A stretch of 64,000 bases of DNA, taken from the NCBI RefSeq assembly GCF_003721515.1, contig NZ_RJJD01000008.1:372001-436000 (forward strand), in the 5' to 3' direction. The notes under the pieces are model-generated. The model was not told the DNA's origin. It saw only the letters and a list, made by a program, of their open reading frames with translations, and searched no databases. Positions 31,105 through 46,065 of this stretch are shown here, piece by piece (position 1 is the stretch's first letter; each line of letters begins with the position of its first letter). The stretch comes from Rufibacter latericius (GTDB lineage Bacteria > Bacteroidota > Bacteroidia > Cytophagales > Hymenobacteraceae). A program made the position numbers and the translations under genes.

Positions 31105-34095
31105 ATGAAAAAAAGCGTACTATTCACCCTCATGGCCCTTACCTGCCTGATAGGTCAGGTGTGGGGCCAGGATCTGGCCGTGACCGGCACCGTTATCTCT
31201 GCTGAAGAACGCACTCCGCTCCCCGGGGTTAGTGTCGTTCAGAAAGGAACCTCCAATGGTTCCAGTACCGATGCATCGGGCCGATTTTCTATCAGCGTAC
31301 CCGGGAACGCCACCTTGGTTTTCTCCTTTATCGGGATGGAGACCCAGGAAATTGCCGTGGGAAACCGAACCACCATCAACGTCAACCTGCGGATAGGCAA
31401 CTCACAGCAGTTGGAAGAGATTGTAGTGACCGGCTTGGCCAGTAGTATTAAGCGCTCCAACCTGGCCAATGCCGTGGCCACGGTTTCGGCGGAGGAACTG
31501 GTGGGCAGAACCCGGCCCCAAACCGTGGATGCCGCCTTACAGGGCAAAGTGGCCGGTGCCGTCATCTCCCAGAACACCGGAGCACCGGGCGGGGGTATCT
31601 CTATGCAGCTACGGGGGGTTTCCACGTTAACGGGCGCCTCGCAACCCCTCATCATCATTGATGGGGTGTATGCCAACAACGAACAATTAGGAAACGGCGC
31701 CGGCTCCCCAAGCTTTACGGGCGCCTCGGCCACCACCCACCGCACCACCCAGGACCAAACGGTGAACCGTTTGTCAGACATCAGCCCCGCCGATATTGAA
31801 AACATTGAGATTCTGAAGGGCTCCAGCGCCGCCGCCATTTACGGGGCCCGGGCCAATGCGGGGGTAGTCATCATCACCACTAAACGCGGGAAAGCGGGCA
31901 GAACCAACGTAAGTCTGGGGCAGGATGTAGGGTTTGTCACCGCTTCCCATTTACCAGGCTCCTCCAATTGGGATGAGGCGCGGCTCCAGGCTATCTATGG
32001 CAGCAACCCTGCGCGTCTGGCCGAAGAAACCGCTTTGTGGCGGGCTGCCAATGCCTCGGGCAACATCTATGATTACGAAGAAGAGATCTTCGGGAACACG
32101 GGCACCGTCTACAACACCAGGCTCAGCGTGTCGGGCGGAAACGAAAAAACGAAGTTCTACGTGGCCGCTTCCAGAAACGATGAATCAGGCATCGTCAAGA
32201 AAACCGGCTTTGAGCGGAATTCCATCAGGGCCAACATTGACCACCAGATTTCCAAGATGTTTGACCTGAGCTTGAGTTCCAACTACATCAGGTCCAGCAA
32301 CCAGCGCGGATTCACCGGAAACGACAACAACGGGGTGGCATTAACCTATAACCTCGCCTATACGCCCAACTACCATGAACTCCACCCCAACGAGCAAGGC
32401 ATTTTCCCCGATGCCCGCAATACCGGTGACAACCCTTTGGCCATTGTAGAACGCGCGGTAAACGATGAGAGCACAAACCGTTTCATCCAGGCCGGTACCT
32501 TTGACATCAACCTCATCTCAGAGGAAAACAGCCAACTGCGGTTCTCCGTCTCCGGAGGAATTGACTATGCCAACACAGAGTCACAGTTGTACCTGCCCGT
32601 AGACTTACAGTCGCAGCGCGATTTAGCCAATCCCGGCGCTATCCGCAACTCACGGTCCAGGGTGTTCAACACCAACCTGCAGGCGGCTTTAGTTTACAAT
32701 TACAACCTGCTGGACAACCGGTTCCACATGACTACCCAGGTAGGAACCAGCCGCCTCACCAACGAAACCGACCTGAGCCATGAACAAGGCCTGGGCCTGA
32801 TTGCAGAGCAACGCAACCCCAACAACTCCCAGGTACCGTCACGCTACCAGCGCCTGACCTCTTTTCAGGATGTGGGGATTTTTGGGCAGCAGGAAGTCAA
32901 CTTCGAGGACAAAATCATTGGTACGCTGGGCATCCGGTTTGATAAATCAAGCCTGCTGGGCGACCATGAGAAATTCTACACCTTCCCTAAAGCATCTTTG
33001 GCGGTAAACGTGGCCAAGTTCGGTTTTTGGTCTATCCCCCAGATAAACCAGGTAAAACTGCGGGCGGCCTACGGCGAAACCGGCGGGATGCCCGTTTACG
33101 GGGCCACTTTCGTCTCCTTTGATCCGCAAATTATTGGGGGTATGATCGGAATTGTACCTACCCTTTTCATCGGGAACGAAGAGATTGAACCAGAGCGGGC
33201 TCAGGAACTGGAATTAGGGATTGATTTGGGCTTCCTGGATAATAAGCTCACCTTAGAGGCCACTTATTACAACAAAGAAGTAAAAGACCTGATCGGGATT
33301 TTCCAGATACCCAACAGCACCGGTATTACCCAGATTGAAGCCTACCCGCTGGGAGATCTACGCAACAAAGGCATTGAACTGAGCCTGGGCTACTCTCCCG
33401 TTCAGACCCAGAATTTCTCCTGGAACGGTACTGTCCTGTACTGGCAAAACCGTACCGAGGTCACCAAGATCAACGTGCCGGTTCAGGAGTTCAGGACGGG
33501 ATTTGGAGCATCATATGGCACTAACTTCTTTATGCTGGGCGAATCCCCTACCCGGTGGTACGGCAACCCGACCGTGCCGGGGCACCCTACCGGCTACACC
33601 CGGTACGAAGAAGCCCAGCCAGACTTCCAGATGAGCTTCGCCAACACGCTCAGCTTCCTGAGGAACTTTGACTTCTCTTTTCTGCTCCACTGGAAAAAAG
33701 GCGGCTACATCAGTAACCTGAACATGGTATTACGGGACGAAGGCGGCACCACCCACGACTGGGCTGAGGATGACAACGGCGATGGCGTAGTCAACGGTGA
33801 AGAAAGACTGGGGGCATCGGCCCGTTACCGCATTCAGGACGGAACCTACCTGCGCCTGCGCGAACTGGCTCTTTACTATAACCTGCCCAGAACCCTGAAG
33901 CAGACCTTGTTCAGAGGCTACGTGCAGAACGCTAAGATTGGGGTTTCGGCCAATAACCTGTTCACCGTCACCGATTATGAAGGGTTTGACCCTGAGGTTT
34001 CCAACTTCGGGAACACACCGCTTGGCTCTCAGGTAGACGTAGGCTCTTTCCCTAACACCAAAAGAGTGTTTTTCCATTTAGCCTTCGATTTCTAA
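31105..34095 (+). CDS. SusC/RagA TonB-dependent transporter (pair 4)
   Basis: 996 residues with signal peptide MKKSVLFTLMALTCLIGQVWGQ and a CarboxypepD_reg-like domain (VTGTVISAEERTPLPGVSVVQKG). The plug has PLIIIDGVYANN, SPADIENIEILKGSSAAAIYG and NAGVVIITTKRG, with a barrel ending RVFFHLAFDF. The signal peptide and first domain resemble those of pair 2, but the plug and barrel belong to another lineage. An extracellular DDNGDGVVNGEE stretch looks like a calcium-binding loop. Function is TonB-powered import of an unknown oligomer with the SusD downstream (22-base gap). Confidence 0.92.
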   Translation: MKKSVLFTLMALTCLIGQVWGQDLAVTGTVISAEERTPLPGVSVVQKGTSNGSSTDASGRFSISVPGNATLVFSFIGMETQEIAVGNRTTINVNLRIGNSQQLEEIVVTGLASSIKRSNLANAVATVSAEELVGRTRPQTVDAALQGKVAGAVISQNTGAPGGGISMQLRGVSTLTGASQPLIIIDGVYANNEQLGNGAGSPSFTGASATTHRTTQDQTVNRLSDISPADIENIEILKGSSAAAIYGARANAGVVIITTKRGKAGRTNVSLGQDVGFVTASHLPGSSNWDEARLQAIYGSNPARLAEETALWRAANASGNIYDYEEEIFGNTGTVYNTRLSVSGGNEKTKFYVAASRNDESGIVKKTGFERNSIRANIDHQISKMFDLSLSSNYIRSSNQRGFTGNDNNGVALTYNLAYTPNYHELHPNEQGIFPDARNTGDNPLAIVERAVNDESTNRFIQAGTFDINLISEENSQLRFSVSGGIDYANTESQLYLPVDLQSQRDLANPGAIRNSRSRVFNTNLQAALVYNYNLLDNRFHMTTQVGTSRLTNETDLSHEQGLGLIAEQRNPNNSQVPSRYQRLTSFQDVGIFGQQEVNFEDKIIGTLGIRFDKSSLLGDHEKFYTFPKASLAVNVAKFGFWSIPQINQVKLRAAYGETGGMPVYGATFVSFDPQIIGGMIGIVPTLFIGNEEIEPERAQELELGIDLGFLDNKLTLEATYYNKEVKDLIGIFQIPNSTGITQIEAYPLGDLRNKGIELSLGYSPVQTQNFSWNGTVLYWQNRTEVTKINVPVQEFRTGFGASYGTNFFMLGESPTRWYGNPTVPGHPTGYTRYEEAQPDFQMSFANTLSFLRNFDFSFLLHWKKGGYISNLNMVLRDEGGTTHDWAEDDNGDGVVNGEERLGASARYRIQDGTYLRLRELALYYNLPRTLKQTLFRGYVQNAKIGVSANNLFTVTDYEGFDPEVSNFGNTPLGSQVDVGSFPNTKRVFFHLAFDF

Positions 34096-34117
34096 AAACC
34101 CCTCAAAAAACCAGACC

Positions 34118-35491
34118 ATGAAACTCAGAAAACTATCCATTTATACGGCATGTGCGCTCCTGCTCAGCGGCACCGCGTGCAGCTACTTTGAAGTAGAAGA
34201 TTCCCAGGACCCCAACCGTGCCGCTATTGAATCTATCGCGAATCCTTCCAGGTCTCAGATTGGGCAATTAGTGGTGGGAGTGGTAGCCCAGATGCGCAAC
34301 AGCTACGGCAGCAACGCCCCCTATAACCGGGTAACTGGCGTATTAGGCCGCGAAATCTACGTTCTGGCTACAAACGAAAGCAAGTGGTACAATGATTTAC
34401 TGGGAGCCCGCCCCTTGGATGACATTTCCTTTTACAGCGTTGGGGCTTACAACCAGATCTCCCTGGCCCGGCGTGCAGCCCAGAACCTGCAGGAAGCAAG
34501 CCAACGAAGCACCTTCCTCTCTGAAGAGGAGAAAAAAGGCGTCAGCGGATTTGCCAATACCGTTCAGGCTTGGTCCATGCTGCACCTGTTAAATTTGATG
34601 GGCGAGAACGGCATCCGGATTGAGTACGGAGACCCCAATGATCCGCGCAATCCGGGTCCGGGTCCGTTTGTGAACTATGATGCGGCCCTCACGGAAATCA
34701 GGCGACTGCTGGATGTAGCTGGTACCGAGTTAGCCGGAGCGGGAGACGAACTGGCTTTCGCCCTGCCCGGTGGGTTCGCCGGATTTGATGACCCTGAATC
34801 TTTACGGGAGTTCAACCGGGCCTTAACCGCTCGGGTGGCCGTGTATCAGGAGGACTGGACCGGAGCTTTAGCGGCCCTGGATGAATCATTCCTGAACCTA
34901 AGCGCGGCTACTCCCGCTGATCTAATGGTGGGGCCCAAACACACCTTTGGAGCCGCGCCCGATGTGTTCAATTTCTACTTCCAGAACCCAAACGCCAACT
35001 CCCCTACCCTCGCCTTCGTGCACCCAAGTTTCCTGGCCAACGCCGAACCCGGTGACCGCCGCGTAGCGGAGAAAACCGAGCCCCGCACTTCTCCCAGAAC
35101 GTTGGGCGATTTAACCGGCACCCATGATCCCACGCTGTACACCACCAATACCACGCCCATCTCCATCATCAGAAACGAGGAGTTACTCTTGATCTATGCC
35201 GAGGCCAAGATCCAGTTGGGCCAGTACGAAGATGCCATATCGGCGCTGAACACCATCCGGACCGTGGCTGGCGGCCTTACACCCTATGCCGGATCCAGAA
35301 CCGACAAGGAGGCCCTAATCAGTGAAATGCTAAAACAACGCCAATATTCCCTCTGGTACGAAGGTCACCGTTGGATAGACATGAGAAGGTACAACCGCCT
35401 GAACCAACTCCCGCTGGACAGAACCGGTGACCAGGTCTGGGACCGCCTCCGCGTTCCGTTCAACGAAACCGCCTGGGGCGGCACTTTGTAG
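34118..35491 (+). CDS. SusD/RagB-type nutrient-binding lipoprotein (pair 4)
   Basis: 457 residues, signal MKLRKLSIYTACALLLSGTAC (lipobox Cys21), mature start SYFEVEDSQDPN. The helical region includes GFANTVQAWSMLHLLNLMGENGIRIEYGDP. The C-terminal part has ISIIRNEELLLIYAEAKIQLGQYEDAISALNTIRTVAGGL and LISEMLKQRQYSLWYEGHRWIDMRRYNRLNQLP, typical of SusD. It is the capture lid of the SusC upstream in a two-gene operon closed by a terminator. Confidence 0.9.
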   Translation: MKLRKLSIYTACALLLSGTACSYFEVEDSQDPNRAAIESIANPSRSQIGQLVVGVVAQMRNSYGSNAPYNRVTGVLGREIYVLATNESKWYNDLLGARPLDDISFYSVGAYNQISLARRAAQNLQEASQRSTFLSEEEKKGVSGFANTVQAWSMLHLLNLMGENGIRIEYGDPNDPRNPGPGPFVNYDAALTEIRRLLDVAGTELAGAGDELAFALPGGFAGFDDPESLREFNRALTARVAVYQEDWTGALAALDESFLNLSAATPADLMVGPKHTFGAAPDVFNFYFQNPNANSPTLAFVHPSFLANAEPGDRRVAEKTEPRTSPRTLGDLTGTHDPTLYTTNTTPISIIRNEELLLIYAEAKIQLGQYEDAISALNTIRTVAGGLTPYAGSRTDKEALISEMLKQRQYSLWYEGHRWIDMRRYNRLNQLPLDRTGDQVWDRLRVPFNETAWGGTL

Positions 35492-35512
35492 ATTCCTCCA
35501 GCTATTCTAATC

Positions 35513-35550
35513 AAAGAAAAGGGCGCCTGTAGGGTGCCCTTTTCTTTTTA
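35513..35550 (+). terminator. Terminator after susC/susD pair 4
   Basis: AAAGAAAAGGGCGCC pairs with GGTGCCCTTTTCTTT (one G-U pair) around a short loop, followed by TTTTA. It begins 22 bases after the SusD stop. Confidence 0.8.
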
Positions 35551-35833
35551 TCCTTGAGGCCTTGAATTGTCCCGTAACATCCTGGCTTAAAATTACCTAC
35601 TCCTGTTTTAGGGCCACTTTTAACAAAACGCCTCTTAAACCATAATGAATGCTTAATTTAGAAGCTGCTTCCTCCACAAGGAAGGCAAAGCATTTCCAGC
35701 CTGATTTTACAGAAACCCCTTAAAAACAGCGCCTCTACATCTTTCGTTTTCGGCAAACCAGCCCCAAAACCATTTATTTCTCGGTAGCAACTCTGCCCAC
35801 CTACAGTATTTTCGATAAATTTTGAACCTATTC
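35551..35833. other. Noncoding gap with three dispersed palindrome copies
   Basis: Copies or partial copies lie at 35603-35640, 35692-35730 and 35745-35772, the densest cluster in the window. No gene was seen. Confidence 0.5.
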
Positions 35834-35866
35834 TTTGGTATTTTCATTTTTTATGTAAAATCTTTG
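35834..35866 (+). promoter_or_regulatory. Candidate promoter of the arginine cluster
   Basis: A -33-like TTTG (35834-35837) is separated by 21 bases from AATCTTTG (35859-35866), one mismatch from the -7 consensus TAnnTTTG. Transcription would start near 35873, giving a leader of about 285 bases before the acetyltransferase gene. Confidence 0.5.
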
Positions 35867-35913
35867 CAAGTGCTTTCAAGTAGAGGCCGCATTCTTTATA
35901 CTATCTTAGGTCA

Positions 35914-36045
35914 ATGAATAAAAAGTCGATTTTATCAGTTGTTGTGGCAACGGTAAAACGCTCCATCCTCCGGAGTGCGCTTTTTTCTGTTCTTCCCAGA
36001 ACAGTTTTTTGTGAACCCCTTTACCTTACCCGATCCAGGCGCTAG
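35914..36045 (+). promoter_or_regulatory. Arginine leader: small Arg-rich frame with two hairpin/T-run structures
   Basis: ATG at 35914 to TAG at 36045 encodes 43 residues, starting MNKKSILSVVVATVKR and ending TRSRR. There are six Arg codons, at residues 16, 20, 29, 40, 42 and 43. Hairpin A (CGC-TCC, 35959-35964, with GGA-GT-GCG, 35972-35979) is followed by T6. Hairpin B (CTGTTCT 35987-35993, loop TCCC, AGAACAG 35998-36004) is perfect and also followed by T6. The position is directly upstream of arginine genes. This could be a translated attenuator or the 3' end of a small RNA; no family is known to me. Confidence 0.5.
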
Positions 36046-36156
36046 GCCACCGGCTCAGGTTGTGATCTACAACTAAACCGGATGCATCCCTGTATACCAC
36101 CTTTTGGGTTGGTAGCAGACCCCTATTTCTTCCTTAATTTTTTAAAAGCCATAGCG

Positions 36157-36765
36157 ATGCGTACTTACGCTTCGGCTGTAGAGTTGCAGCCTATTGCACC
36201 CGTTTCCATGGAAACCTCTCACAATGCTTTCACTGTAGTGGTTGCTACAGAAGAGCACACCCCCTTTGCGCAGCAGATTTGCGATGAAATGGAGTCCTCG
36301 GCGAAAGCACGCGGCACCGGCATCGCGAAGCGTTCCCCAGACTATGTGGCCCAGAAGATGCGGGAAGGCAAAGCCGTGATCGCGTTTGACGAAGAAGGCA
36401 ACTGGGCTGGGTTCTGCTACATTGAAACCTGGGGTCACGGCGAGTACGTGGCCAACTCAGGTTTGATTGTATCGCCGCATCTGCGCAAAAGCGGTCTGGC
36501 CAAACGCATAAAAGAAAAGGTGTTTGCCTTGTCACGCACCAAGTACCCGCATGCCAAAATTTTCGGGCTTACCACAGCCTTGGCGGTGATGAAGATAAAC
36601 TCAGATCTGGGGTACCGTCCGGTGACCTACTCTGAACTCACCAACGACGAGGAGTTCTGGAAAGGTTGCCGCAGCTGCGTGAACTTTGATATTCTCACGG
36701 CCAAAAACCGCAGCAATTGCCTGTGTACGGCCATGCTGTACGTTCCGCCAAAGGCAGAAGAATGA
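36157..36765 (+). CDS. GNAT N-acyltransferase, candidate N-acylglutamate synthase
   Basis: 202 residues from the ATG at 36157; the frame is open to 36082 without support. The GNAT fold is seen in AVIAFDEEGNWAGFCYIETWG, then GLIVSPHLRKSGLAKRIKEKVFALS with the acetyl-CoA P-loop R-x-x-G-x-A. The C-terminus has an unusual Cys cluster (GCRSCVNFDILTAKNRSNCLC). As first gene of the arginine cluster, and with no classical argA or argJ in the window, it is the best candidate for acylating glutamate. This is inference from context; the acyl donor (acetyl or succinyl) is unknown. Confidence 0.7.
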   Translation: MRTYASAVELQPIAPVSMETSHNAFTVVVATEEHTPFAQQICDEMESSAKARGTGIAKRSPDYVAQKMREGKAVIAFDEEGNWAGFCYIETWGHGEYVANSGLIVSPHLRKSGLAKRIKEKVFALSRTKYPHAKIFGLTTALAVMKINSDLGYRPVTYSELTNDEEFWKGCRSCVNFDILTAKNRSNCLCTAMLYVPPKAEE

Positions 36766-36837
36766 GTGATTGAATGGTTGAATGATTGAGAGAATAAAAG
36801 TTTACATTCTCTCAATCATTCAACCATTCAATCACTC
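36764..36837. repeat. 32-bp perfect inverted repeat after the acetyltransferase
   Basis: Arms 36764-36795 and 36806-36837 are perfectly complementary with a 10-base loop. The left arm includes part of the stop codon of the upstream gene. The arms are built from repeated TGAAT/ATTCA-like words that continue to about 36879. The hairpin lacks a clean T tract after it. Confidence 0.85.
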
Positions 36838-36882
36838 CATAGACAATCACTCAATCATTCATTCTTTCAATCATTCATTAAA

Positions 36883-38079
36883 ATGAAAAAAGTAGTTCTC
36901 GCGTTCAGCGGCGGCTTAGACACATCTTTCTGTGTGAAGTACCTGCTGGAACAAGGTTATGAAATCTATTCGGCCATCGTGAACACCGGCGGCTTCTCTG
37001 AGGAGGAACTGGCTGAAATCGCCCGAAGGGCCGAGAATTTGGGTGTGACCCACCACGTAACCTTAGACGAAACCGATAACTACTACCAGTCTTGCCTGAA
37101 GTACCTCATCTTCGGGAATGTCCTGAAAAACAACACCTATCCGCTGTCAGTGAGCGCCGAGCGGATCTCGCAGGCGGTGGCCATTGCCAAATATGCCCAA
37201 CAGATTGGGGCCGAATCGGTAGCGCACGGTAGCACCGGCGCAGGCAACGACCAGGTTCGGTTCGACATGGTGTTCAATATTCTGGTGCCGAACGTGCAGG
37301 TGATTACACCTATCCGCGATTTAAAATTGTCGCGTGAGGAAGAAATTGCCTATCTGAAAGAGCGTGGCGTGGAGATGGACTTCCAAAAGGCGCAGTACTC
37401 TATTAACAAAGGCATCTGGGGAACATCGGTGGGTGGTAAAGAGACCCTGACCTCGCATCAGGCCCTGCCAGAATCTGCCTACCCAACTCAGCTTTCTAAA
37501 GAAACGCCAGAGCGTATCACGCTGCATTTCAAAAATGGGGAGCCTGTTGGATTGAACGACGAAATGTTTGACAACCCAGTGCATGTCATCCAGAAGCTGC
37601 AGGAAATTGCCGGAGGCTTCGCGATTGGTAGAGACATTCACGTGGGTGATACTATTATAGGCATCAAAGGCCGTGTGGGTTTTGAGGCGGCGGCGCCGAT
37701 GGTCATCATCAAAGCGCATCATGCCCTGGAGAAACACACGCTCACCAAATGGCAGCTGTACTGGAAAGACAGTTTGGCTACCTGGTACGGCAACTGGATG
37801 CACGAAGGTCAGTTCCTAGATCCCACCATGCGCAACATCGAGACCTTCCTGACCGATACGCAGAAGACCGTCACCGGAAAAGTGCATGTGTTGCTGGCCC
37901 CATACCGCTTCCAGGTAGAAGGTATTGAGTCTGAGCATGACCTCATGTCTTCTAAATTCGGTTCTTACGGCGAAATGAACAACGCCTGGACCGGCGAAGA
38001 CGTGAAAGGTTTCTCTAAAATATTTGGAAACCAGACCATGATGTACCGTTTAATCAACGGCGAGGACGATGCAAAATAG
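36883..38079 (+). CDS. argG: Argininosuccinate synthase
   Basis: 398 residues. The ATP pyrophosphatase loop VLAFSGGLDTSFCVKYL is at about 5-21. AHGSTGAGNDQVRFDM and the citrulline/aspartate region VSAERISQAVAIAKYAQQIGAESVAHG are family hallmarks. It condenses citrulline with aspartate using ATP, the penultimate step of arginine synthesis, in the cytoplasm. Its last 11 bases overlap the start of argC, so the two are translationally coupled. Confidence 0.96.
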   Translation: MKKVVLAFSGGLDTSFCVKYLLEQGYEIYSAIVNTGGFSEEELAEIARRAENLGVTHHVTLDETDNYYQSCLKYLIFGNVLKNNTYPLSVSAERISQAVAIAKYAQQIGAESVAHGSTGAGNDQVRFDMVFNILVPNVQVITPIRDLKLSREEEIAYLKERGVEMDFQKAQYSINKGIWGTSVGGKETLTSHQALPESAYPTQLSKETPERITLHFKNGEPVGLNDEMFDNPVHVIQKLQEIAGGFAIGRDIHVGDTIIGIKGRVGFEAAAPMVIIKAHHALEKHTLTKWQLYWKDSLATWYGNWMHEGQFLDPTMRNIETFLTDTQKTVTGKVHVLLAPYRFQVEGIESEHDLMSSKFGSYGEMNNAWTGEDVKGFSKIFGNQTMMYRLINGEDDAK

Positions 38080-39058
38080 CCTGATAAAAGTTGGTATAGT
38101 AGGCGGAGCGGGCTACACCGGTGGTGAACTGCTGCGTCTGCTGGTGCACCGCCCACACGTAGAAATCAGCTTCGTACACAGCAACAGCCAGGCTGGCAAA
38201 CCTGTGACAGACACGCACACAGATTTAATTGGCGACACGGATCTGGTCTTCACCAACGAACTGGGCACCGAGGTTGACGTGCTGTTCCTCTGCGTAGGCC
38301 ACGGCGATGCGAAGAAATTCTTAGACGCCAATCCTATTCCAGATGAGGTAAAAATCATTGACCTAAGCCAGGACTTCCGGTTAACTGAGAAATCTGCTTT
38401 TGGCAATCGGCAATTTGTTTACGGCCTGCCCGAGCTGAACCGTGCCCAAATCAAAACAGCGGCTAACGTGGCCAACCCAGGCTGCTTCGCTACCGCGATT
38501 CAGCTGGCCTTGCTCCCACTTGCGCAGAATGGTTCTTTACCTCAAGAAGTGCACGTAAGCGGCATCACCGGCTCTACCGGCGCGGGCCAGAAACTAGCCG
38601 AGACCTCTCACTTCAGCTGGCGCAACAATAACATCTCCAGCTACAAAGTGTTCGGGCACCAGCATTTGCATGAGATTACGGAGAGCCTGCAATCACTGCA
38701 AACAAATGCGCAACCTGCAATAAGGTTTGTGCCTTACCGCGGTAACTTCAGCCGAGGCATCATGTGCACTACCTACCTGCGTTCAGACTTGAGCTTGGAG
38801 GAAGCGCAGCAACTATACAGGCAGTTCTATGAAAGCCATCCGTACACACTGATCACTGATAAAAACCCCGACCTGAAACAGGTGGTGAACACCAACAAGT
38901 GCTTACTCTATCTAGAGAAGCACGAGGACCAGTTGGTTATCACCAGCATGATTGACAACCTGCTGAAAGGTGCCTCGGGACAAGCCGTGCAGAACATGAA
39001 CCTGATGTTCGGGCGGGACGAAAGGGCTGGCTTGCAGCTGAAAGCCATTGGGTTTTAG
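38069..39058 (+). CDS. argC: N-acetyl-gamma-glutamyl-phosphate reductase
   Basis: 329 residues with the NADP-binding loop VGIVGGAGYTGGELLRLL at 8-25 and the catalytic cysteine Cys139 in VANPGCFATAIQLALLPL. HVSGITGSTGAGQKLAETSHFSWRNNNISSYKVFGHQHLHEI is the family core. It reduces N-acyl-glutamyl phosphate to the semialdehyde. It overlaps argG by 11 bases. The 375-base repeat-filled gap to argD is the largest inside the cluster. Confidence 0.95.
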   Translation: MQNSLIKVGIVGGAGYTGGELLRLLVHRPHVEISFVHSNSQAGKPVTDTHTDLIGDTDLVFTNELGTEVDVLFLCVGHGDAKKFLDANPIPDEVKIIDLSQDFRLTEKSAFGNRQFVYGLPELNRAQIKTAANVANPGCFATAIQLALLPLAQNGSLPQEVHVSGITGSTGAGQKLAETSHFSWRNNNISSYKVFGHQHLHEITESLQSLQTNAQPAIRFVPYRGNFSRGIMCTTYLRSDLSLEEAQQLYRQFYESHPYTLITDKNPDLKQVVNTNKCLLYLEKHEDQLVITSMIDNLLKGASGQAVQNMNLMFGRDERAGLQLKAIGF

Positions 39059-39062
39059 TTTT

Positions 39063-39105
39063 CATTTTAGGCCTGTTTTGAGAAAACAGACTGATAACTT
39101 AAACA
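39063..39105. repeat. Dispersed ~38-bp palindrome copy
   Basis: One of the clearest copies: CATTTTAGGCCTGTTTTG then AGAAAACAGACTGATAAC. It begins about 4 bases after the argC stop. Confidence 0.6.
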
Positions 39106-39120
39106 GCTACTAAGGTTCCA

Positions 39121-39325
39121 CTGGCGCGAGCGTCCCTCTTGTGTCCGCACACATTGCTGAGAATGTTGATTCTCCCACTCTTGTCATCCTGAAAGGACCT
39201 TGTAGGCAAACTAGAAAAGCAGCAGAGAAAAGCCGTTAATGTTCGCTCACAAGGTCCTTTCAGGATGACAAAAAGAATGATCTAAAATGCGTGCGGACAC
39301 GGACAGCAAGCTCACGCTAGCGAAT
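39121..39325. repeat. Composite MITE-like inverted repeat, copy 2
   Basis: The inner arms 39181-39203 and 39249-39271 are a perfect 23-bp inverted repeat starting TTGTCATCCTGAAAGG. The outer arms GTGTCCGCAC (39141-39150) and GTGCGGACAC (39291-39300) are also perfect. GCGAGCG-like words lie further out on both sides. The nested unit lies between argC and argD without interrupting a gene. Confidence 0.75.
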
Positions 39326-39433
39326 GCGGCAAATAAAATCAGAAACCAGAAATAGCCGCTTTCAGGCTCTTTTCTGAGAAATAGACATAAAACAGAAATC
39401 GTGTTACGTGTGTCGTGATACGTGCTACCGACT

Positions 39434-40570
39434 ATGAATCTCTTCGACGTTTATCCTCTCTTTGATATAACACCCGTACGCGCCCTCGGCTCCACGCTTT
39501 GGGACGAAAACGGTACTGAGTACCTGGATTTGTACGGCGGTCATGCCGTGATTTCCATCGGCCACAGCCACCCGCATTATGTGAAGCGCTTAACCGAGCA
39601 GCTGAATAACATGGGTTTTTACTCCAATTCGGTGAACATTCCGCAGCAGCAGGAACTGGCAGATAAGTTGGGGAAACTCAGCGGCTATGATGATTACCAG
39701 TTCTTCCTGGTGAATTCTGGGGCCGAGGCCAACGAGAATGCGCTCAAACTGGCGTCCTTCCATACAGGCCGCAAAAAAGTCATCTCGTTCCGTAAATCTT
39801 TCCACGGACGTACATCTGCGGCTGTTGCGGCTACCGATGACCCAAGCATTGTAGCCCCGGTGAACGTGACGGATAACATCCTGTTCTTGCCGTTCAATGA
39901 TTCGGCGGCCGTAGAAGAAGCGCTGTCTACGAATGAAGTAGCAGCTATCATCATTGAAGGCATTCAGGGTGTAGGCGGCGTGGTGATTCCGGATGCGCCC
40001 TTTTTGCAGGATTTGGAAAAACTAGCCAAAAAACACGGAGCGCTACTTATTTTGGACGAGGTGCAGTCGGGCTACGGGCGTTCTGGTAAGTTCTTCGCGC
40101 ACCAGCACGCAGGCATTCGCCCAGACCTGATTACGGTTGCGAAAGGGATGGGCAACGGTTTCCCGGTAGCGGGCGTTCTGATTTCGCCGGAGATTCCGGC
40201 CAAGCACGGCATGCTGGGTACCACCTTCGGAGGGAATTACCTAGCCTGCGCTGCTGCCTTAGCGGTTTTGGAAGTGATTGAGCAGGAGAACCTGATAGAG
40301 AACGCTACTCAAATGGGCAAGTACCTCATGGAGAAAGCCAAAGCCTTGCCGGGCGTACGTGAAGTGCGTGGCCAAGGCTTGATGGTGGGCATCGAGCTGG
40401 AAAGCCCTTGCGCTCCCCTCCGCAAAGCCCTGCTGGATGAATATGGTATCTTCACCGGCTCGGCCTCCAACAAAAATACCATCCGTATACTGCCAGCCTT
40501 GAACGTAACTCAGGCGGAGTTAGATAGATTTTTAGAGGCGTTCGCTGTGCTCGTATCACGTAGCAAGTAG
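39434..40570 (+). CDS. argD: N-acylornithine aminotransferase
   Basis: 378 residues from the ATG at 39434, preferred to a GTG 12 bases upstream. This class III PLP aminotransferase has GGHAVISIGHSHPHYV, NSGAEANENALKLAS, SFHGRT, LDEVQSGYGR at 207-216 and PLP lysine Lys237 in LITVAKGMGNGFPVAG. It converts N-acylglutamate semialdehyde to N-acylornithine with glutamate as amino donor. The last codons (VSRSK and stop) fall in a TATCACGTAGC repeat word that has an inverted relative just before the gene. Confidence 0.93.
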   Translation: MNLFDVYPLFDITPVRALGSTLWDENGTEYLDLYGGHAVISIGHSHPHYVKRLTEQLNNMGFYSNSVNIPQQQELADKLGKLSGYDDYQFFLVNSGAEANENALKLASFHTGRKKVISFRKSFHGRTSAAVAATDDPSIVAPVNVTDNILFLPFNDSAAVEEALSTNEVAAIIIEGIQGVGGVVIPDAPFLQDLEKLAKKHGALLILDEVQSGYGRSGKFFAHQHAGIRPDLITVAKGMGNGFPVAGVLISPEIPAKHGMLGTTFGGNYLACAAALAVLEVIEQENLIENATQMGKYLMEKAKALPGVREVRGQGLMVGIELESPCAPLRKALLDEYGIFTGSASNKNTIRILPALNVTQAELDRFLEAFAVLVSRSK

Positions 40571-40645
40571 TCCTTATCACGATTTTATATTTATGTCAAA
40601 CCGGTATCGCGCTACCTGATACGCGATACTTGATACCATAGAAAG

Positions 40646-41599
40646 ATGAAGCAATTCACTTCCGTTCACGACGTAGAAGACATTGAGGCGCTGGTGCGCG
40701 AAGCACTGGTGTTAAAACAGCATCCGTACGCACATGAAAGCCTGGGCAAACACAAAACGTTGGGTCTAATTTTCCTGAATCCTAGCTTACGCACCCGCCT
40801 CAGCACGCAGAAAGCCGCACAGAGTTTGGGCATGAACGTAATGGTGATGAACATGGGTCAGGAAGGCTGGGCGCTGGAAACACAGGACGGTGCCATCATG
40901 AACGGCACCACCGTGGAGCATATCAAAGACGCCGCCGCAGTCATGGGCGAGTACTGCGATATCCTGGGTATGCGCTCTTTCCCGAAGCTGCAGAACGTGG
41001 AGGATGATTACTCAGAAGAAATCCTGCAGAAGTTCATCCAGTATGCCAATGTGCCATTTGTAAGCTTGGAATCAGCTACCCGTCACCCGCTGCAAAGCTT
41101 GGCAGATTTAATCACCATCACTGAGCATGCACCAAAAGGCCGCCGGCCAAAAGTGGTATTAACCTGGGCACCACACGTGAAAGCGTTGCCGCAGGCCGTT
41201 CCTAACTCCTTCGCCGAATGGATGTGCGCTGCTGATGTGGATTTCGTCATCACGCACCCCGAAGGCTACGAACTGGACCCACAATTCACCAACGGCGCCA
41301 CCATCACCTACAACCAGCAGGAGGCTCTGAATGGTGCAGATTTCATCTACGTGAAGAACTGGTCCACTTACCAGCCTTACGGACAGGTGCTCACCCAAGA
41401 TGCTAGCTGGATGCTCACCAATCAGCACCTCGCCAACACAAACAACGCCAAAGTCATGCACTGCCTCCCTGTGCGCCGCAATGTGGAACTCAGTGATGAG
41501 ATTCTGGACGGCCCGAACTCGCTGGTAGTACAAACCGCTGCCAACCGTGAATTTGCCGCCCAAGCAGTGTTAAGATTGTTGTTGGAAGGATTAAAGTAA
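40646..41599 (+). CDS. argF': N-acetyl/succinyl-ornithine carbamoyltransferase
   Basis: 317 residues. The carbamoyl-phosphate loop is the Bacteroidota-type FLNPSLRTRLSTQ instead of STRTR. ESATRHPLQSLADL, VLTWAPHVKALPQAVPNSFAEW and MHCLPVRRN follow. This family carbamoylates N-acylornithine rather than free ornithine, and the product is deacylated later by ArgE. The residue that separates acetyl from succinyl specificity (Pro90 in Bacteroides fragilis, Glu92 in Xanthomonas, from memory) is Val90 here (NGTTVEH), so the acyl group is open. Confidence 0.92.
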   Translation: MKQFTSVHDVEDIEALVREALVLKQHPYAHESLGKHKTLGLIFLNPSLRTRLSTQKAAQSLGMNVMVMNMGQEGWALETQDGAIMNGTTVEHIKDAAAVMGEYCDILGMRSFPKLQNVEDDYSEEILQKFIQYANVPFVSLESATRHPLQSLADLITITEHAPKGRRPKVVLTWAPHVKALPQAVPNSFAEWMCAADVDFVITHPEGYELDPQFTNGATITYNQQEALNGADFIYVKNWSTYQPYGQVLTQDASWMLTNQHLANTNNAKVMHCLPVRRNVELSDEILDGPNSLVVQTAANREFAAQAVLRLLLEGLK

Positions 41600-41668
41600 G
41601 GAAAGCCGCTGGCATAAGTGGCAAATTCGCACCAGCAAAAAAGTCCAGAATTTAATGTCTATTGCCTA

Positions 41669-42466
41669 GTGTCTACTAAAATCAACGTCATCAAAATTGG
41701 GGGAAATGTGCTGGATAATCCGGCACAGCTTGACCAGTTTCTCACCGATTTTGCCTTCATCCAAGGTCCGAAAGTTCTGGTACACGGTGGCGGGAAAATT
41801 GCCTCGGATCTGAGTAAGCAACTGGGCATTGAACCTAACATGGTGAACGGCCGCCGCATCACCGATGATGATACCTTGCGCGTAGTGACCATGGTCTATG
41901 GCGGATTGCTGAACAAGAACCTAGTAGCGCAACTGCAAGCCCGAGGCTGCAATTCCCTCGGCTTGACTGGTGCCGATGCCAACGTCATTCCGGCCCACAA
42001 GCGCCCGGTGAAAGACATTGATTACGGCTTGGTAGGCGATGTGGAAAGTCCAGAGCAGGTGAATGTAAGGTTTTTGGCTTCCTTGGCGGAACAGGGCCTA
42101 ACTCCGGTTTTTGCGGCATTAACACATGACGGTCAGGGCAGCCTGCTCAACACCAACGCCGACACGATCGCCTCTACCCTAGCGGTAGCGCTGAGCCGAG
42201 AGTTTGAGGTGAACCTGGTGTACTGCTTCGAGAAGAAAGGCGTGCTGCTGGATGTGGAAGATGAGACCAGCGTAATTCACCATCTTCAGCCAGACAACTA
42301 TGCAGAGTTGAAAGCCCAAGGTTCCATCTTTGCGGGGATGCTTCCTAAGTTGGATAATGCGTTTGCTGCGCTACAAGCTGGCGTGAACGCGGTGATCATT
42401 GGTCATGCAGGCGAAATACAAACCATAGCTGCAGGTGAAAAGGCTGGGACGAGGATAACGCTGTAA
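41669..42466 (+). CDS. argB: Acetylglutamate kinase
   Basis: 265 residues from a GTG at 41669 (VSTKINVIKIGGNVLDN). The frame is open to 41618, but this start puts the kinase glycine motif at the usual place. It has VLVHGGGKIASDLSKQLG, VNGRRITDDDTLRVV, LTGADANVIPAHKR, and SLLNTNADTIASTLAVALS for substrate binding. It phosphorylates N-acylglutamate with ATP. No N-terminal helix of the arginine-inhibited hexameric type is present, so feedback control by arginine at this enzyme is doubtful (inference). Confidence 0.93.
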   Translation: MSTKINVIKIGGNVLDNPAQLDQFLTDFAFIQGPKVLVHGGGKIASDLSKQLGIEPNMVNGRRITDDDTLRVVTMVYGGLLNKNLVAQLQARGCNSLGLTGADANVIPAHKRPVKDIDYGLVGDVESPEQVNVRFLASLAEQGLTPVFAALTHDGQGSLLNTNADTIASTLAVALSREFEVNLVYCFEKKGVLLDVEDETSVIHHLQPDNYAELKAQGSIFAGMLPKLDNAFAALQAGVNAVIIGHAGEIQTIAAGEKAGTRITL

Positions 42467-42708
42467 GTCGGCGCTGTTTTCGTTTCTTGGCTACTTTGCC
42501 GAAAAGAGGCTAAAAACATTTCCTAACCAGAGGATACAGGCTGTGCCTTTTCATTCACAATACTTCCAGATTTGATTGGCCGCCCTGTACGTTTTTAGTT
42601 AGATTTTTAGAAAACAAGCCCAAAGCAGTTGGAGGAGTCTCTGATTTACCTTTCTTGCAAAAGTAGTCTCAACATCAGGCCGGTGCACCGGCTGCAACCT
42701 TAAGAGCC

Positions 42709-43530
42709 ATGAATGAACAGTATAAGAAAATAGCCATTCTGGGCGGCGGAAACATGGGCATCGCGCTGGCCAAAGGTATGGTCGCCTCCGGGAAATACCG
42801 CGCTGAGGACATTACCCTCACCCGTCGTAACACCAGACTATTGGAGCCGATGGTGGAGCAGGGCTACCGCGCCTCCAGCAACAACGCACTGGCCGTCTCC
42901 GAGGCTGACATAGTAGTCTTGAGTATCTTGCCACAGCAACTGGACAGCGTTTTGGACAACATCTCCGAAAGCATCGACCCAAGCCGACACCTGTTCATCT
43001 CCATCGTGACCGGCGTGGCCGTGACCGATATCATCACCCGCTTGGGCAAAGTGGTGGAAGTGGTGCGCGCCATGCCCAACACCGCCATCGCCATTCGGGA
43101 GTCGATGACGTGTATTACCAGCAAGAATGCCTCGCCTGAGAACATCAAACTGGTGAAAGAGATCTTCTCCGCCGTAGGCGAAACGGTTGAGATTGAGGAA
43201 GAATTAATGTCCTCGGCTACGGCGCTGGTGGCCTGCGGAATTGCCTTCTTTCTGCGCTCTATTCGCGCTGCAGCCCAAGGTGGTACCGAGATCGGATTCC
43301 ACGCGGGTGATGCGCTGCGCATGGCCGCCCAAACCGCCAAAGGCGCGGCTTCCCTCCTGCTGCACTTCGGAAGCCACCCAGAGAACGAGATTGACAAAGT
43401 GACTTCGCCCAAAGGTTGTACTATCGCAGGCCTCAACGAGATGGAACACAACGGCTTCAGCTCCGCGATGATCAAAGGCATCAAGACCTCGGCCAATAAG
43501 GCGGAGAAATTGTATACAGACGAAAAGTAG
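42709..43530 (+). CDS. proC: Pyrroline-5-carboxylate reductase
   Basis: 273 residues. The NAD(P) loop IAILGGGNMGIALAKGMV is near the start, with VVEVVRAMPNTAIAIRESM and the C-terminal signature KVTSPKGCTIAGLNEMEHNGFSSAMIKGI. It makes proline from pyrroline-5-carboxylate and so links proline to the glutamate semialdehyde pool. Its presence inside the arginine cluster is common in Cytophagales. It is separated from argB by 242 bases containing two dispersed palindrome copies. Confidence 0.94.
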   Translation: MNEQYKKIAILGGGNMGIALAKGMVASGKYRAEDITLTRRNTRLLEPMVEQGYRASSNNALAVSEADIVVLSILPQQLDSVLDNISESIDPSRHLFISIVTGVAVTDIITRLGKVVEVVRAMPNTAIAIRESMTCITSKNASPENIKLVKEIFSAVGETVEIEEELMSSATALVACGIAFFLRSIRAAAQGGTEIGFHAGDALRMAAQTAKGAASLLLHFGSHPENEIDKVTSPKGCTIAGLNEMEHNGFSSAMIKGIKTSANKAEKLYTDEK

Positions 43531-43562
43531 AGACAAGGCATGCCTTGTCTCTCACCTCTTGC

Positions 43563-43640
43563 TGGTTTTGCCTACTTCTCAGAAAAGGGACTGAAAACAG
43601 AAATCAGCAGATGTAAACATATCCTTACCCCCTCAAAGGG
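43563..43640. repeat. Dispersed palindrome copy and C5/G5 mini-palindrome
   Basis: The palindrome copy is at 43563-43600 (GGTTTTGCCTACTTCTC then AGAAAAGGGACTGAAAAC). It is followed near 43629 by CCCCCTCAAAGGGGG, a mini-hairpin that recurs in altered form near 58130 and 58330. Confidence 0.5.
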
Positions 43641-43667
43641 GGACTCTCGAATAGCGTACTTTTTTAA

Positions 43668-44732
43668 ATGAACAACACCTTATACCAAGACGCTTTAACC
43701 CTGCTTCAGCAGTTGATTTCCATCCAATCCTTCAGCCGCGAAGAGGCAGGAACGGCGGAGGCGATTGCGCAGTTTTTGCAGACCAGAGGCGTGGAGATTC
43801 ACCGCAAGGAGAACAACGTCTGGGCGTTTAACAAGCAATACAACCCAGCTTTGCCTACGGTGTTGCTGAACTCGCACCATGACACCGTGAAGCCGCACCC
43901 GAGCTGGACCTTTGACCCGTTTACGCCTACGGTCCAAGATGGTAAACTCATAGGTTTGGGCAGTAATGATGCAGGTGGTTGTCTGGTGTCGCTCATCGCT
44001 ACGTTCCTGCACTTTTATGAGCGGCAGGATTTGACCTATAATTTGGTGCTGGCCGCTACCGCCGAGGAAGAAATCTCCGGTAGAAACGGCATTGAGCTTG
44101 TGTACCCAGAACTGGGCACAGTGGAATTTGCCATTATAGGCGAGCCCACCCAGATGCACTTGGCTGTGGCCGAGAAAGGCTTAATGGTACTGGACTGCGT
44201 CGCGCACGGACAAGGCGGCCACGCTGCCCGCGAAGAAGGCGTGAACGCTATCTACGAGGCACTGCCAGATATGGAATGGTTCCGCTCGTTCCGTTTCCCA
44301 AAGGAGTCCAGCTTCTTAGGTCCGGTGAAGATGAGCGTAACCATCATTCAGGCTGGTACGCAGCACAACGTAGTGCCGGACCAATGCACGTTCACGGTAG
44401 ATGTGCGCATAACCGATGCCTATCAGCCCGAGGAAGTGTTAAGCATCATTCGGGAGCACGTAAAAAGTGAGGTGACGCCTAGGTCTACCCGTTTGCGGCC
44501 CTCGTCTATTGACCAGAACCATCCTATTGTGCAATCGGGGATAAAGCTGAGCAGGAACCTGTACGGCTCCCCTACCACCTCAGACCAAGCGCTGCTGAAT
44601 ATTCCCTCGGTGAAGGTTGGTCCTGGCGACTCGGCGCGGTCGCACACCGCCAATGAATTCATTTACCTATCAGAACTGGAAGAAGGCATCGCCCTTTACA
44701 TACAATTATTGACACCCGTTATTACCGTTTAG
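43668..44732 (+). CDS. argE: N-acetylornithine/citrulline deacetylase, M20 family
   Basis: 354 residues of the M20 metallopeptidase family. Metal ligands and catalytic residues are seen in LLNSHHDTVKPH (His70, Asp72), GLGSNDAGG (Asp101), TAEEEISGRNG (Glu133/134) and IGEPTQ. AEKGLMVLDCVAHGQGGHAAR opens the dimerisation domain. In an ArgF' pathway the substrate is N-acylcitrulline, giving free citrulline for ArgG. Only one base separates its stop from the argH start, so they are coupled. Confidence 0.92.
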   Translation: MNNTLYQDALTLLQQLISIQSFSREEAGTAEAIAQFLQTRGVEIHRKENNVWAFNKQYNPALPTVLLNSHHDTVKPHPSWTFDPFTPTVQDGKLIGLGSNDAGGCLVSLIATFLHFYERQDLTYNLVLAATAEEEISGRNGIELVYPELGTVEFAIIGEPTQMHLAVAEKGLMVLDCVAHGQGGHAAREEGVNAIYEALPDMEWFRSFRFPKESSFLGPVKMSVTIIQAGTQHNVVPDQCTFTVDVRITDAYQPEEVLSIIREHVKSEVTPRSTRLRPSSIDQNHPIVQSGIKLSRNLYGSPTTSDQALLNIPSVKVGPGDSARSHTANEFIYLSELEEGIALYIQLLTPVITV

Positions 44733-44733
44733 C

Positions 44734-46065
44734 ATGAAACTCTGGCAGAAAGAAACATCCGTGGCTCAGAACGTTGAGAAATTCACCGTGGGCAAAGACG
44801 CCGAAATGGACTTACAATTGGCTCCTTTTGATGTGTTGGGCTCCCTGGCGCACACGCGCATGCTGGAGAGCATCGGGCTAATGGAACCGGAGGACTTAGC
44901 CGCCGTGCAGCGTGAGCTGAAGGAGATTTACCGAAGCATTGAACGCGGTGTCTTTGAGATTGAGCCCGGTGTGGAAGATGTACATTCGCAGGTGGAGCTG
45001 TTGCTCACACGCCGTTTGGGTGAGGCTGGTAAGAAAATCCACAGTGGCCGTTCGCGTAACGACCAAGTACTGGTGGACCTGAAACTGTTCATCCGCCATG
45101 AAATCCGACAGACGGTTGAGGCCGTGCACACGCTGTTCAACACCTTGCAGGAACTCAGTGAGAAGAACAAACACATCCTGCTGCCCGGGTATACCCACTT
45201 GCAAGTGGCTATGCCTTCTTCGTTCGGGTTGTGGTTTGGCGCGTACGCAGAGAGTTTGGTGGATGACCTTCAGCTTCTGCAGGCGGCCTACAAAATCAGC
45301 AACAAGAATCCGTTGGGCTCGGCAGCTGGGTACGGAAGTTCTTTCCCGCTTAACCGTCAAATGACAACTGATTTACTTGGTTTCGAGGCGCTGAACTATA
45401 ATGTGGTGTACGCCCAGATGGGGCGCGGCAAAACCGAGCGCAGCGTGAGCATGGGCCTGGCTTCTATTGCCAGTACCATCAGCCGCATGGCCATGGACGT
45501 GTGCCTGTATATGAGCCAGAACTTCGCCTTCGTGACGCTGCCAGATGAACTGACCACCGGTTCCAGCATCATGCCGCACAAGAAGAACCCCGATGTGTTT
45601 GAGATCATGCGTGGCAAGTGCAACCGCCTGCAAGCCCTCCCTACCGAGATTCAGATGCTCCTCGGCAACCTGCCCTCCGGCTACCACCGCGAACTGCAAT
45701 TGCTCAAAGAAAGCTTCTTCCCGGCTTTCACAGAGATTAGGAACTGTTTGGAGATGATGACCTTCATGCTGCCGCACCTGAAACTGAACGAGGATATACT
45801 AAAAGACGAGAAGTACCAGTACCTCTTCAGCGTAGAGGTGGTAAACAACCAGGTTCTGAGTGGCGTGCCGTTCCGGGATGCGTACAAGAACGTGGGAATA
45901 GCCATTGAAAAAGGTGAGTTCACCCGTCCCGAAACGTTGCACCACACGCATGAGGGCAGCATTGGCAACCTGTGTACCGAGCAGATCAAAGGCATAATGG
46001 AAGAGGTACTGAGCGGTTTTCAGTTTGAGAAAGTAGACAAAGCTATTGCGGAGTTGCTAGCTTAG
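44734..46065 (+). CDS. argH: Argininosuccinate lyase
   Basis: 443 residues of the fumarase/aspartase superfamily. It has DVHSQVELLLTRRLGEAGKKIHSGRSRNDQVLVDLKLF, LPGYTHLQVAMPSSFGLWF, and the mobile-loop signature TTGSSIMPHKKNPD at about 275-288 with the catalytic serine. It splits argininosuccinate to arginine and fumarate, the last step. It is the last gene of the cluster and is followed by a dispersed palindrome copy and a strong terminator. Confidence 0.96.
   Translation: MKLWQKETSVAQNVEKFTVGKDAEMDLQLAPFDVLGSLAHTRMLESIGLMEPEDLAAVQRELKEIYRSIERGVFEIEPGVEDVHSQVELLLTRRLGEAGKKIHSGRSRNDQVLVDLKLFIRHEIRQTVEAVHTLFNTLQELSEKNKHILLPGYTHLQVAMPSSFGLWFGAYAESLVDDLQLLQAAYKISNKNPLGSAAGYGSSFPLNRQMTTDLLGFEALNYNVVYAQMGRGKTERSVSMGLASIASTISRMAMDVCLYMSQNFAFVTLPDELTTGSSIMPHKKNPDVFEIMRGKCNRLQALPTEIQMLLGNLPSGYHRELQLLKESFFPAFTEIRNCLEMMTFMLPHLKLNEDILKDEKYQYLFSVEVVNNQVLSGVPFRDAYKNVGIAIEKGEFTRPETLHHTHEGSIGNLCTEQIKGIMEEVLSGFQFEKVDKAIAELLA

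Follow-up and report, generated by a model that had tools for sequence, protein, structure and literature searches.

In attenuators of the trp/his type a short ORF that contains codons for the cognate amino acid precedes the operon, and in ligand-sensing arrest peptides such as TnaC and SpeFL the ribosome is stopped at the stop codon. The Bacteroid-trp motif RF01692 is presumably linked to trp genes, as we take from its name. An excerpt of its description counts the motif among the likely cis-regulatory RNAs of Bacteroidetes (PMC2864571). For the leader orf34 of Salmonella speF, the excerpted account states that leader translation blocks Rho-dependent termination and that a hairpin downstream of the stop can form when the ribosome pauses at Arg codons (PMC6386406). 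The leader rbfL of S. aureus senses arginine limitation by pausing (PMC13009471, excerpt). For Flavobacterium psychrophilum, hints that leader-peptide attenuation acts upstream of amino-acid operons are reported (PMC9723704, excerpt), and for Bacteroides thetaiotaomicron, small ORFs that resemble leaders within long 5' regions (PMC7366714, excerpt). Leader-peptide control itself is thus a known kind of regulation. In open-licence PMC papers no account was found of the arginine leader described here, nor of a terminator inside a leader ORF upstream of the control codons.

The locus lies in the window, i.e., the whole stretch of 64,000 nucleotides of Rufibacter latericius that was analysed. We take it for a regulatory leader of the arginine operon, which the ribosome probably reads in two stages (probability about 0.8). 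The comparison with relatives shows a coding-like frame with terminal Arg codons, a covarying RNA, a hairpin 3' of the frame, a cognate operon and a genus in which no ArgR was found. The features are collected in Table 1.

Table 1. Position and basis of the features of the arginine leader and its operon (coordinates of the window).
Feature	Position	Strand	Basis
Bacteroidota-type promoter boxes (putative): TTTG 35834-35837, TAAAATCTTTGC 35856-35867	35834-35867	+	largely conserved in Rufibacter alignment
Leader ORF, 43 codons, ends LTRSRR-stop	35914-36045	+	indel-free in 16/16 Rufibacter; relatives with similar ORFs
Three-way junction P1-P3	35920-35986	+	fold; covariation in 18 Pontibacter (mainly P3) and 27 model matches
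P1	35920-35928 with 35978-35986	+	closing stem of three-way junction
P2	35930-35942 with 35947-35958	+	three-way junction
P3	35959-35964 with 35972-35977	+	three-way junction
P4 hairpin and six T, terminator-like, within ORF	35987-36010	+	two-sided changes in 6/7 P4 pairs (27 model matches) and 4/7 (18 Pontibacter)
Control codons CGA (Arg40), AGG (Arg42, penultimate), CGC (Arg43), stop TAG	36031-36045	+	Arg at all three in 16/16 Rufibacter
Hairpin hA just 3' of stop (CCGG + GGTTGT / ACAACT + CCGG)	36050-36081	+	covariation
Hairpin hB, then C/T-rich stretch to 36141	36090-36118	+	weaker than hA
GNAT-family protein, first gene of cluster	36157-36765	+	translation; weak Pfam GNAT matches, best just under cut-off
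argG, argC, argD, N-acetylornithine-type carbamoyltransferase, argB, proC, ArgE/DapE-type deacylase, argH	36883-46065	+	NCBIfam

The leader frame and its surroundings in Rufibacter

The sequence-only reading had pointed to a frame of 43 codons with six Arg codons and the C-terminal end TRSRR, lying directly before the first gene of an arginine cluster. The translation, MNKKSILSVVVATVKRSILRSALFSVLPRTVFCEPLYLTRSRR, agrees with this exactly, and the frame is followed by the GNAT gene and then by the arginine biosynthesis genes. A promoter-like pair had been claimed as well. Here the Bacteroidota-type boxes are conserved, although less well in some Rufibacter. A sigma-70-type scan of 34500-37500 gave two pairs only, both on the minus strand. 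The boxes are putative and are assigned by their likeness to the Bacteroidota promoter motif.

Upstream of the leader, at 31105-35547, lies a pair of genes for an outer-membrane-receptor-like and a lipoprotein-like protein (SusC/SusD-like by eye), closed by a terminator-like hairpin of 16 pairs (35513-35547). Between the stop of the GNAT gene and argG a perfect 32-bp inverted repeat of TGATTGAA-like units is found at 36764-36837 (to 36884), and similar repeats precede argG in several other Rufibacter.

The leader was recovered from all 16 Rufibacter genomes searched, giving 15 distinct leaders once identical ones were dropped. In each of the 16 the ORF is intact and without indels, and each ends with R-S/P-R-R-stop. 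Arg40 is encoded by CGA, CGG or AGG, Arg42 always by AGG and Arg43 by CGC or CGT, so that all changes within these three codons, seen at 40 and 43, are synonymous. The most variable codons of the leader (11, 18 and 19) sit in RNA loops, whereas codons 22-26 and 29, which belong to P1, P4 and the neighbouring stretch, are invariant. Both the frame and the RNA therefore look constrained.

Arginine-ending leaders and ArgR in relatives

With a profile of the Rufibacter leader, matches were obtained in Pontibacter and some Chitinophagales-like genomes, again ahead of the GNAT gene. Upstream frames were read in 66 fetched relatives and 60 further family loci. The sequences of these leaders diverge and their ends are alike (VVRYRR/VVRYRP, PFWVRR, TPRI, IPRV, LPRA, PVRA, LLRRP). 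Of 152 distinct GNAT-upstream regions examined, 145 hold an ATG-started ORF of 28-95 codons, and in 141 of the 145 the longest such ORF has Arg as penultimate residue, a count that was not selected by Arg. In the controls, which were run on a partly redundant set of 166 regions, penultimate Arg was seen in 12/110 antisense and 9/60 shuffled cases; the frame of L077 reaches further upstream and was missed in the redundant-set count. In three of the four exceptions a second ORF fits, and four loci without a 28-95 codon ATG ORF (L063, L100, L152, L153) yet have a fitting GTG or TTG frame. L093 (ending RPRRGC), L111, L183 and L186 do not fit, with no such ORF in the latter three.

Hairpins, T runs and Arg positions were counted in a set of 150 leaders chosen by Arg at -2, so that Arg at this position proves nothing in those counts. 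The Pedobacter-like leaders, also filtered for Arg there, use six different Arg codons at -2. At unfiltered positions Arg is found at -4 in 15/15 Rufibacter and 41/45 Pontibacter, at -3 in 18/18 Hymenobacter-like, at -8 in 31/32 Pedobacter-like/other and at -9 to -7 in 9/9 Mucilaginibacter-like leaders.

For the phylum, 296 genomes were sampled, in which GNAT was detected in 124 (E up to 1e-30), and 60 upstream regions were fetched. A strict rule was applied: an ORF of 14-95 codons that starts with ATG, GTG or TTG, has Arg as penultimate residue and contains three or more Arg among its final twelve codons. It holds for 31 of the 60 regions, against 4/60 in antisense and a mean of 3.3 in shuffled regions (maximum 6; 20 shuffles). 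Arg at -2 alone is seen in 38, compared to 15 in antisense and 13.3 in shuffled sequence. The rule failed in 29/60 regions, and about 3 of the 31 passes are expected by chance. Putative Arg leaders precede the GNAT gene in about half, not all, of the phylum-sample regions. At four loci (L230, L231, L238, L240) a tandem pair of Arg-ending leader ORFs precedes the GNAT gene, perhaps as a double control. An in-frame tandem repeat (GRPAPVANDFY-like) has lengthened the leader of L079 (882-1121), which now counts 79 codons and keeps the VRR-stop end.

A search with PF01316 (ArgR) gave no match in any of the 16 Rufibacter genomes, while the same search does find ArgR in Bacteroides ihuae as control; the RNA-binding domain of Rho is present in 16/16. 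In the 296 genomes of the phylum sample ArgR occurs in 110 and GNAT in the 124 mentioned above, with an overlap of 4, two of them (G479, G501) resting on weak or repeated matches. Since both distributions follow phylogeny, the complementarity does not stand for many independent events. It supports the leader as arginine control and is no proof of it. Two genomes, G670 (C6:164506-165534) and G678 (C1:650695-651769), carry argR directly upstream of GNAT, where relatives have the leader; at the G678 locus (L245) no Arg leader was seen.

RNA structure inside and behind the leader frame

Two successive hairpins inside the frame, each followed by six T, had been noticed in the letters. Both T runs (35981-35986 and 36005-36010) are present, and so is the second stem (35987-36004), a perfect 7 bp with a 4-base loop and the T run next to it. 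For the first hairpin the six T are there, but they do not directly follow the stem (35959-35977), from which CGC separates them. Nor is this T run a hairpin tail: relatives show it as the 3' arm of P1, paired with the A run directly after the AUG. Judged by the alignments, both hairpins are parts of one conserved predicted structure, a three-way junction and the terminator-like P4.

In the single sequence the hairpins do not stand out clearly from chance: 3 kb hold 6 terminator-like sites, where shuffles give 3.6 (sd 1.7), and the folding z values are -1.3 and -1.6. The leader RNA is raised above chance by its conservation in 16/16 Rufibacter, by the hairpin and T run within the ORF and by covariation. 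Counted from the ORF start, a hairpin with T run lies at +85 to +94 in 15/15 distinct Rufibacter, 39/45 Pontibacter and 10/17 Chitinophagales-like leaders. The unusual position inside the frame, remarked upon by the sequence-only reading, is hence conserved in Rufibacter, Pontibacter and most Chitinophagales-like leaders. The scan found no such element in 18 Hymenobacter-like and 32 Pedobacter-like leaders, and it is rare elsewhere (1/9 Mucilaginibacter-like, 1/7 Adhaeribacter). The module therefore is not required for the Arg part in general.

An alignment of relatives had been proposed as a check for Arg codons and covarying stems, and both were found conserved. In 18 Pontibacter leaders 92.7% of the P1-P4 cells are paired, and 29 two-sided cells, all within P3 and P4, compare with 10.7 in shuffles. 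A covariance model was built from these 18 of the 45 Pontibacter leaders (alignment A2). On its 27 matches 113 two-sided cells in all four helices compare with 36.5 in shuffles, in an alignment that is fitted to the model and includes one chance hit (L020, reverse strand, E 0.46). Among 36 chosen loci the model matched 10/10 Rufibacter and, with falling scores, most Chitinophagales-like ones; nine of the more distant matches have E 0.01 to 0.44. It gave no match in the Pedobacter-, Mucilaginibacter-, Hymenobacter- and Adhaeribacter-like loci tried and missed L051, L066, L075, L078, L081, L090, L114, L147, L152 and L168. The R. latericius genome contains a single match at E up to 10. In the order, stricter filters gave matches in 9/291 genomes, all Rufibacter or Pontibacter with one copy each and always beside the GNAT place. 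Indels in the loops of Pontibacter leaders are multiples of three. A mutual-information ranking of the 45 Pontibacter leaders was mixed with phylogenetic noise, and no independent support was drawn from it. L061 was dropped from alignment A1, which was unused thereafter, and L156 from A4. No Rfam covariance model reached its gathering score in the leader; relaxing the limit to E 10 added just two eukaryotic families, both far below their own thresholds.

Between the leader stop and the GNAT gene, the helices of hA are 96.7% paired in 15 Rufibacter, with some two-sided changes. For hB 74.5% of the cells are paired and two-sided changes occur in 5/10 pairs. Together the two hairpins contain 17 two-sided cells against 6.0 in shuffles, and an equivalent covarying hairpin after the stop in 43 Pontibacter has 27 against 8.3. 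A hairpin followed by T4 was scanned for 3' of the ORF and found in 0/15 Rufibacter, 1/32 Pedobacter-like, 11/45 Pontibacter, 5/18 Hymenobacter-like and 3/17 Chitinophagales-like leaders. None of the 21 phylum-sample loci scanned has a terminator between leader and gene. A textbook terminator after the ORF was rejected as a general feature, as it is not conserved in the family scans. In five of the 11 Pontibacter leaders with such a hairpin, out of 45 (L034, L037, L044, L046, L158), the terminator-like hairpin with T4 spans the leader stop codon and could be blocked by a ribosome on the Arg codons, so that an intrinsic attenuator is possible in that subset.

A small hairpin whose loop contains the stop codon was also considered as a universal feature and rejected as a general rule on the family counts. 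With a score of 9 or more it occurs in 45/45 Pontibacter, 15/15 Rufibacter, 13/31 of the phylum sample, 4/17 Chitinophagales-like and 0/18 Hymenobacter-like leaders. In Rufibacter it has 3 bp and is not above shuffles, and in Pontibacter the three tested pairs are invariant. In six loci (L221, L225, L230, L231, L238, L240) the stop codon lies in a hairpin loop of the GCCC-GTAA-GGGC type, followed by a conserved AGGTGAGTCC-like loop. The consensus fold 3' of the ORF of 25 Pedobacter-like sequences gave no clear switch. A candidate alternative pairing GGTAAA/TTTACC (35952, 36020) was not kept in Pontibacter, as judged by eye.

Proposed mechanism and comparison with known systems

For the first stage, the 97 nt that open the leader gene fold into the three-way junction, whose closing stem is formed with the codons next to the AUG, and into the terminator-like hairpin with its T run behind it. 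When the leader is not translated, this conserved structure would form and transcription would stop within the gene. When it is translated, the ribosome trailing RNA polymerase would melt junction and hairpin. In the second stage, scarcity of charged Arg-tRNA would halt the ribosome at the conserved terminal Arg codons beside the stop. The halted ribosome would alter the 110 nt before the first gene, where hA and probably the access of Rho would be affected, and the operon would be expressed. With plentiful arginine the ribosome would finish and depart, and expression would drop. We infer that arginine is sensed by slow decoding of Arg codons, with induction on shortage, termination within the ORF and Rho at the output step. 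The fixed place of a control codon beside the stop fits such a position-sensing scheme. In Rufibacter, Rho or a change of structure is favoured over intrinsic attenuation, because no 3' terminator is conserved and Rho is present; this would be as in the Salmonella speF leader.

An arginine leader-peptide regulator, as suggested by the sequence-only reading, is strongly supported by the Arg codons with their synonymous changes, the cognate operon and the similar leaders in the phylum. The almost fixed penultimate Arg and its nearness to the stop would also be expected from an arrest peptide that binds arginine or a relative and halts the ribosome at the stop, without slow Arg decoding. Pro near the end is common, and non-Arg residues are conserved within families, e.g., TPRI in the Pedobacter-like leaders. 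However, apart from the Arg at -2 there is little likeness between the peptides of different families, the final residue is variable (R, P, I, V, A, others), and extra Arg codons stand at differing places, as codon reading predicts. Codon sensing is therefore preferred, because the families differ in almost all but the Arg codons, and we consider an arrest peptide unlikely. The covarying junction with a hairpin and T run directly 3' of it, and its single copy at the GNAT locus in R. latericius and in the nine order genomes, would suit a riboswitch, in which P1-P3 form an aptamer (e.g., for arginine), P4 is the expression platform and the frame is secondary. Such a switch is quite improbable, as the reading frame is maintained through loop indels, the Arg codons persist where the model finds no junction, and the 3' arm of P1 and the 5' arm of P4 are both C/U-rich and cannot pair together.

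The alternative offered by the sequence-only reading, a stand-alone small RNA of ~135 nt with its 3' end at the second T run, draws on the terminator-like P4 with its T run and on the promoter-like boxes upstream. It is highly improbable, because the conserved ORF, its Arg end and hA extend past the T run, because ORF and Arg end are kept even in leaders that lack the hairpins, and because the model matches in the nine order genomes all lie beside GNAT places. An ordinary 5' region in which ORF and hairpins arose by chance would agree with the unremarkable statistics of the single sequence, but conservation, covariation and the antisense and shuffle controls contradict this reading and leave it next to no probability.

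For the ribosome-read arginine leader a wider statement is more tentative, and we rate it somewhat short of even odds. Such leaders would be a Bacteroidota-wide stand-in for ArgR, with the penultimate residue nearly always Arg and a switch consisting of a ribosome parked on the last sense codons, not of a terminator/antiterminator swap. In Rufibacter, Pontibacter and Chitinophagales-like genomes an intrinsic terminator nested in the leader gene upstream of the control codons would be added as a separate translation gate. The leader is a concrete candidate for an arginine regulator in lineages of a large phylum in which no ArgR was found. A terminator-like hairpin within the gene, together with a control codon fixed beside the stop, is not predicted by the standard attenuation model and bears on the tightness of transcription-translation coupling in Bacteroidota.

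Compared with known systems, RF01692 is a different family; no Rfam model reaches threshold here. The excerpted accounts of F. psychrophilum and B. thetaiotaomicron name no arginine leader (PMC9723704, PMC7366714). Like rbfL (MVLKYRKR), the leader peptide has Arg codons near its end; unlike here, rbfL as excerpted is translational, overlaps the ribosome-binding site, targets a biofilm regulator and lowers expression upon limitation (PMC13009471). With trp/his-type attenuators it shares a short ORF with cognate codons upstream of the cognate operon (PMC4833913, excerpt): frame, stop and Arg codons are conserved and arginine genes lie downstream. In that type an intrinsic terminator with a competing antiterminator follows the ORF. 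Here no intrinsic terminator is conserved 3' of it, and the terminator-like hairpin that is conserved sits within the ORF and precedes the control codons.

The leader also resembles the orf34 type. Arg codons without a 3' intrinsic terminator are found in Rufibacter (16/16 and 0/15, respectively), and hA, just 3' of the stop, shows covariation in both Rufibacter and Pontibacter. Unlike in that type, a 3' terminator is present in some of the Pontibacter and Hymenobacter-like leaders. As far as the excerpt of the speF account goes, orf34 likewise is a leader ORF with Arg codons, one of them beside the stop, and is followed by a hairpin, which there depends on ribosome position. Downstream transcription requires leader translation, low arginine favours expression in that model, and no Rho-independent terminator was found there (PMC6386406). 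The two differ in that orf34 controls ornithine decarboxylase, that its acting Arg pair lies in the conserved domain of the ORF and that its gate is Rho (PMC6386406). Here the Arg codons stand at the ORF end, and in Rufibacter, Pontibacter and most Chitinophagales-like leaders the candidate gate is a hairpin with T run inside the ORF.
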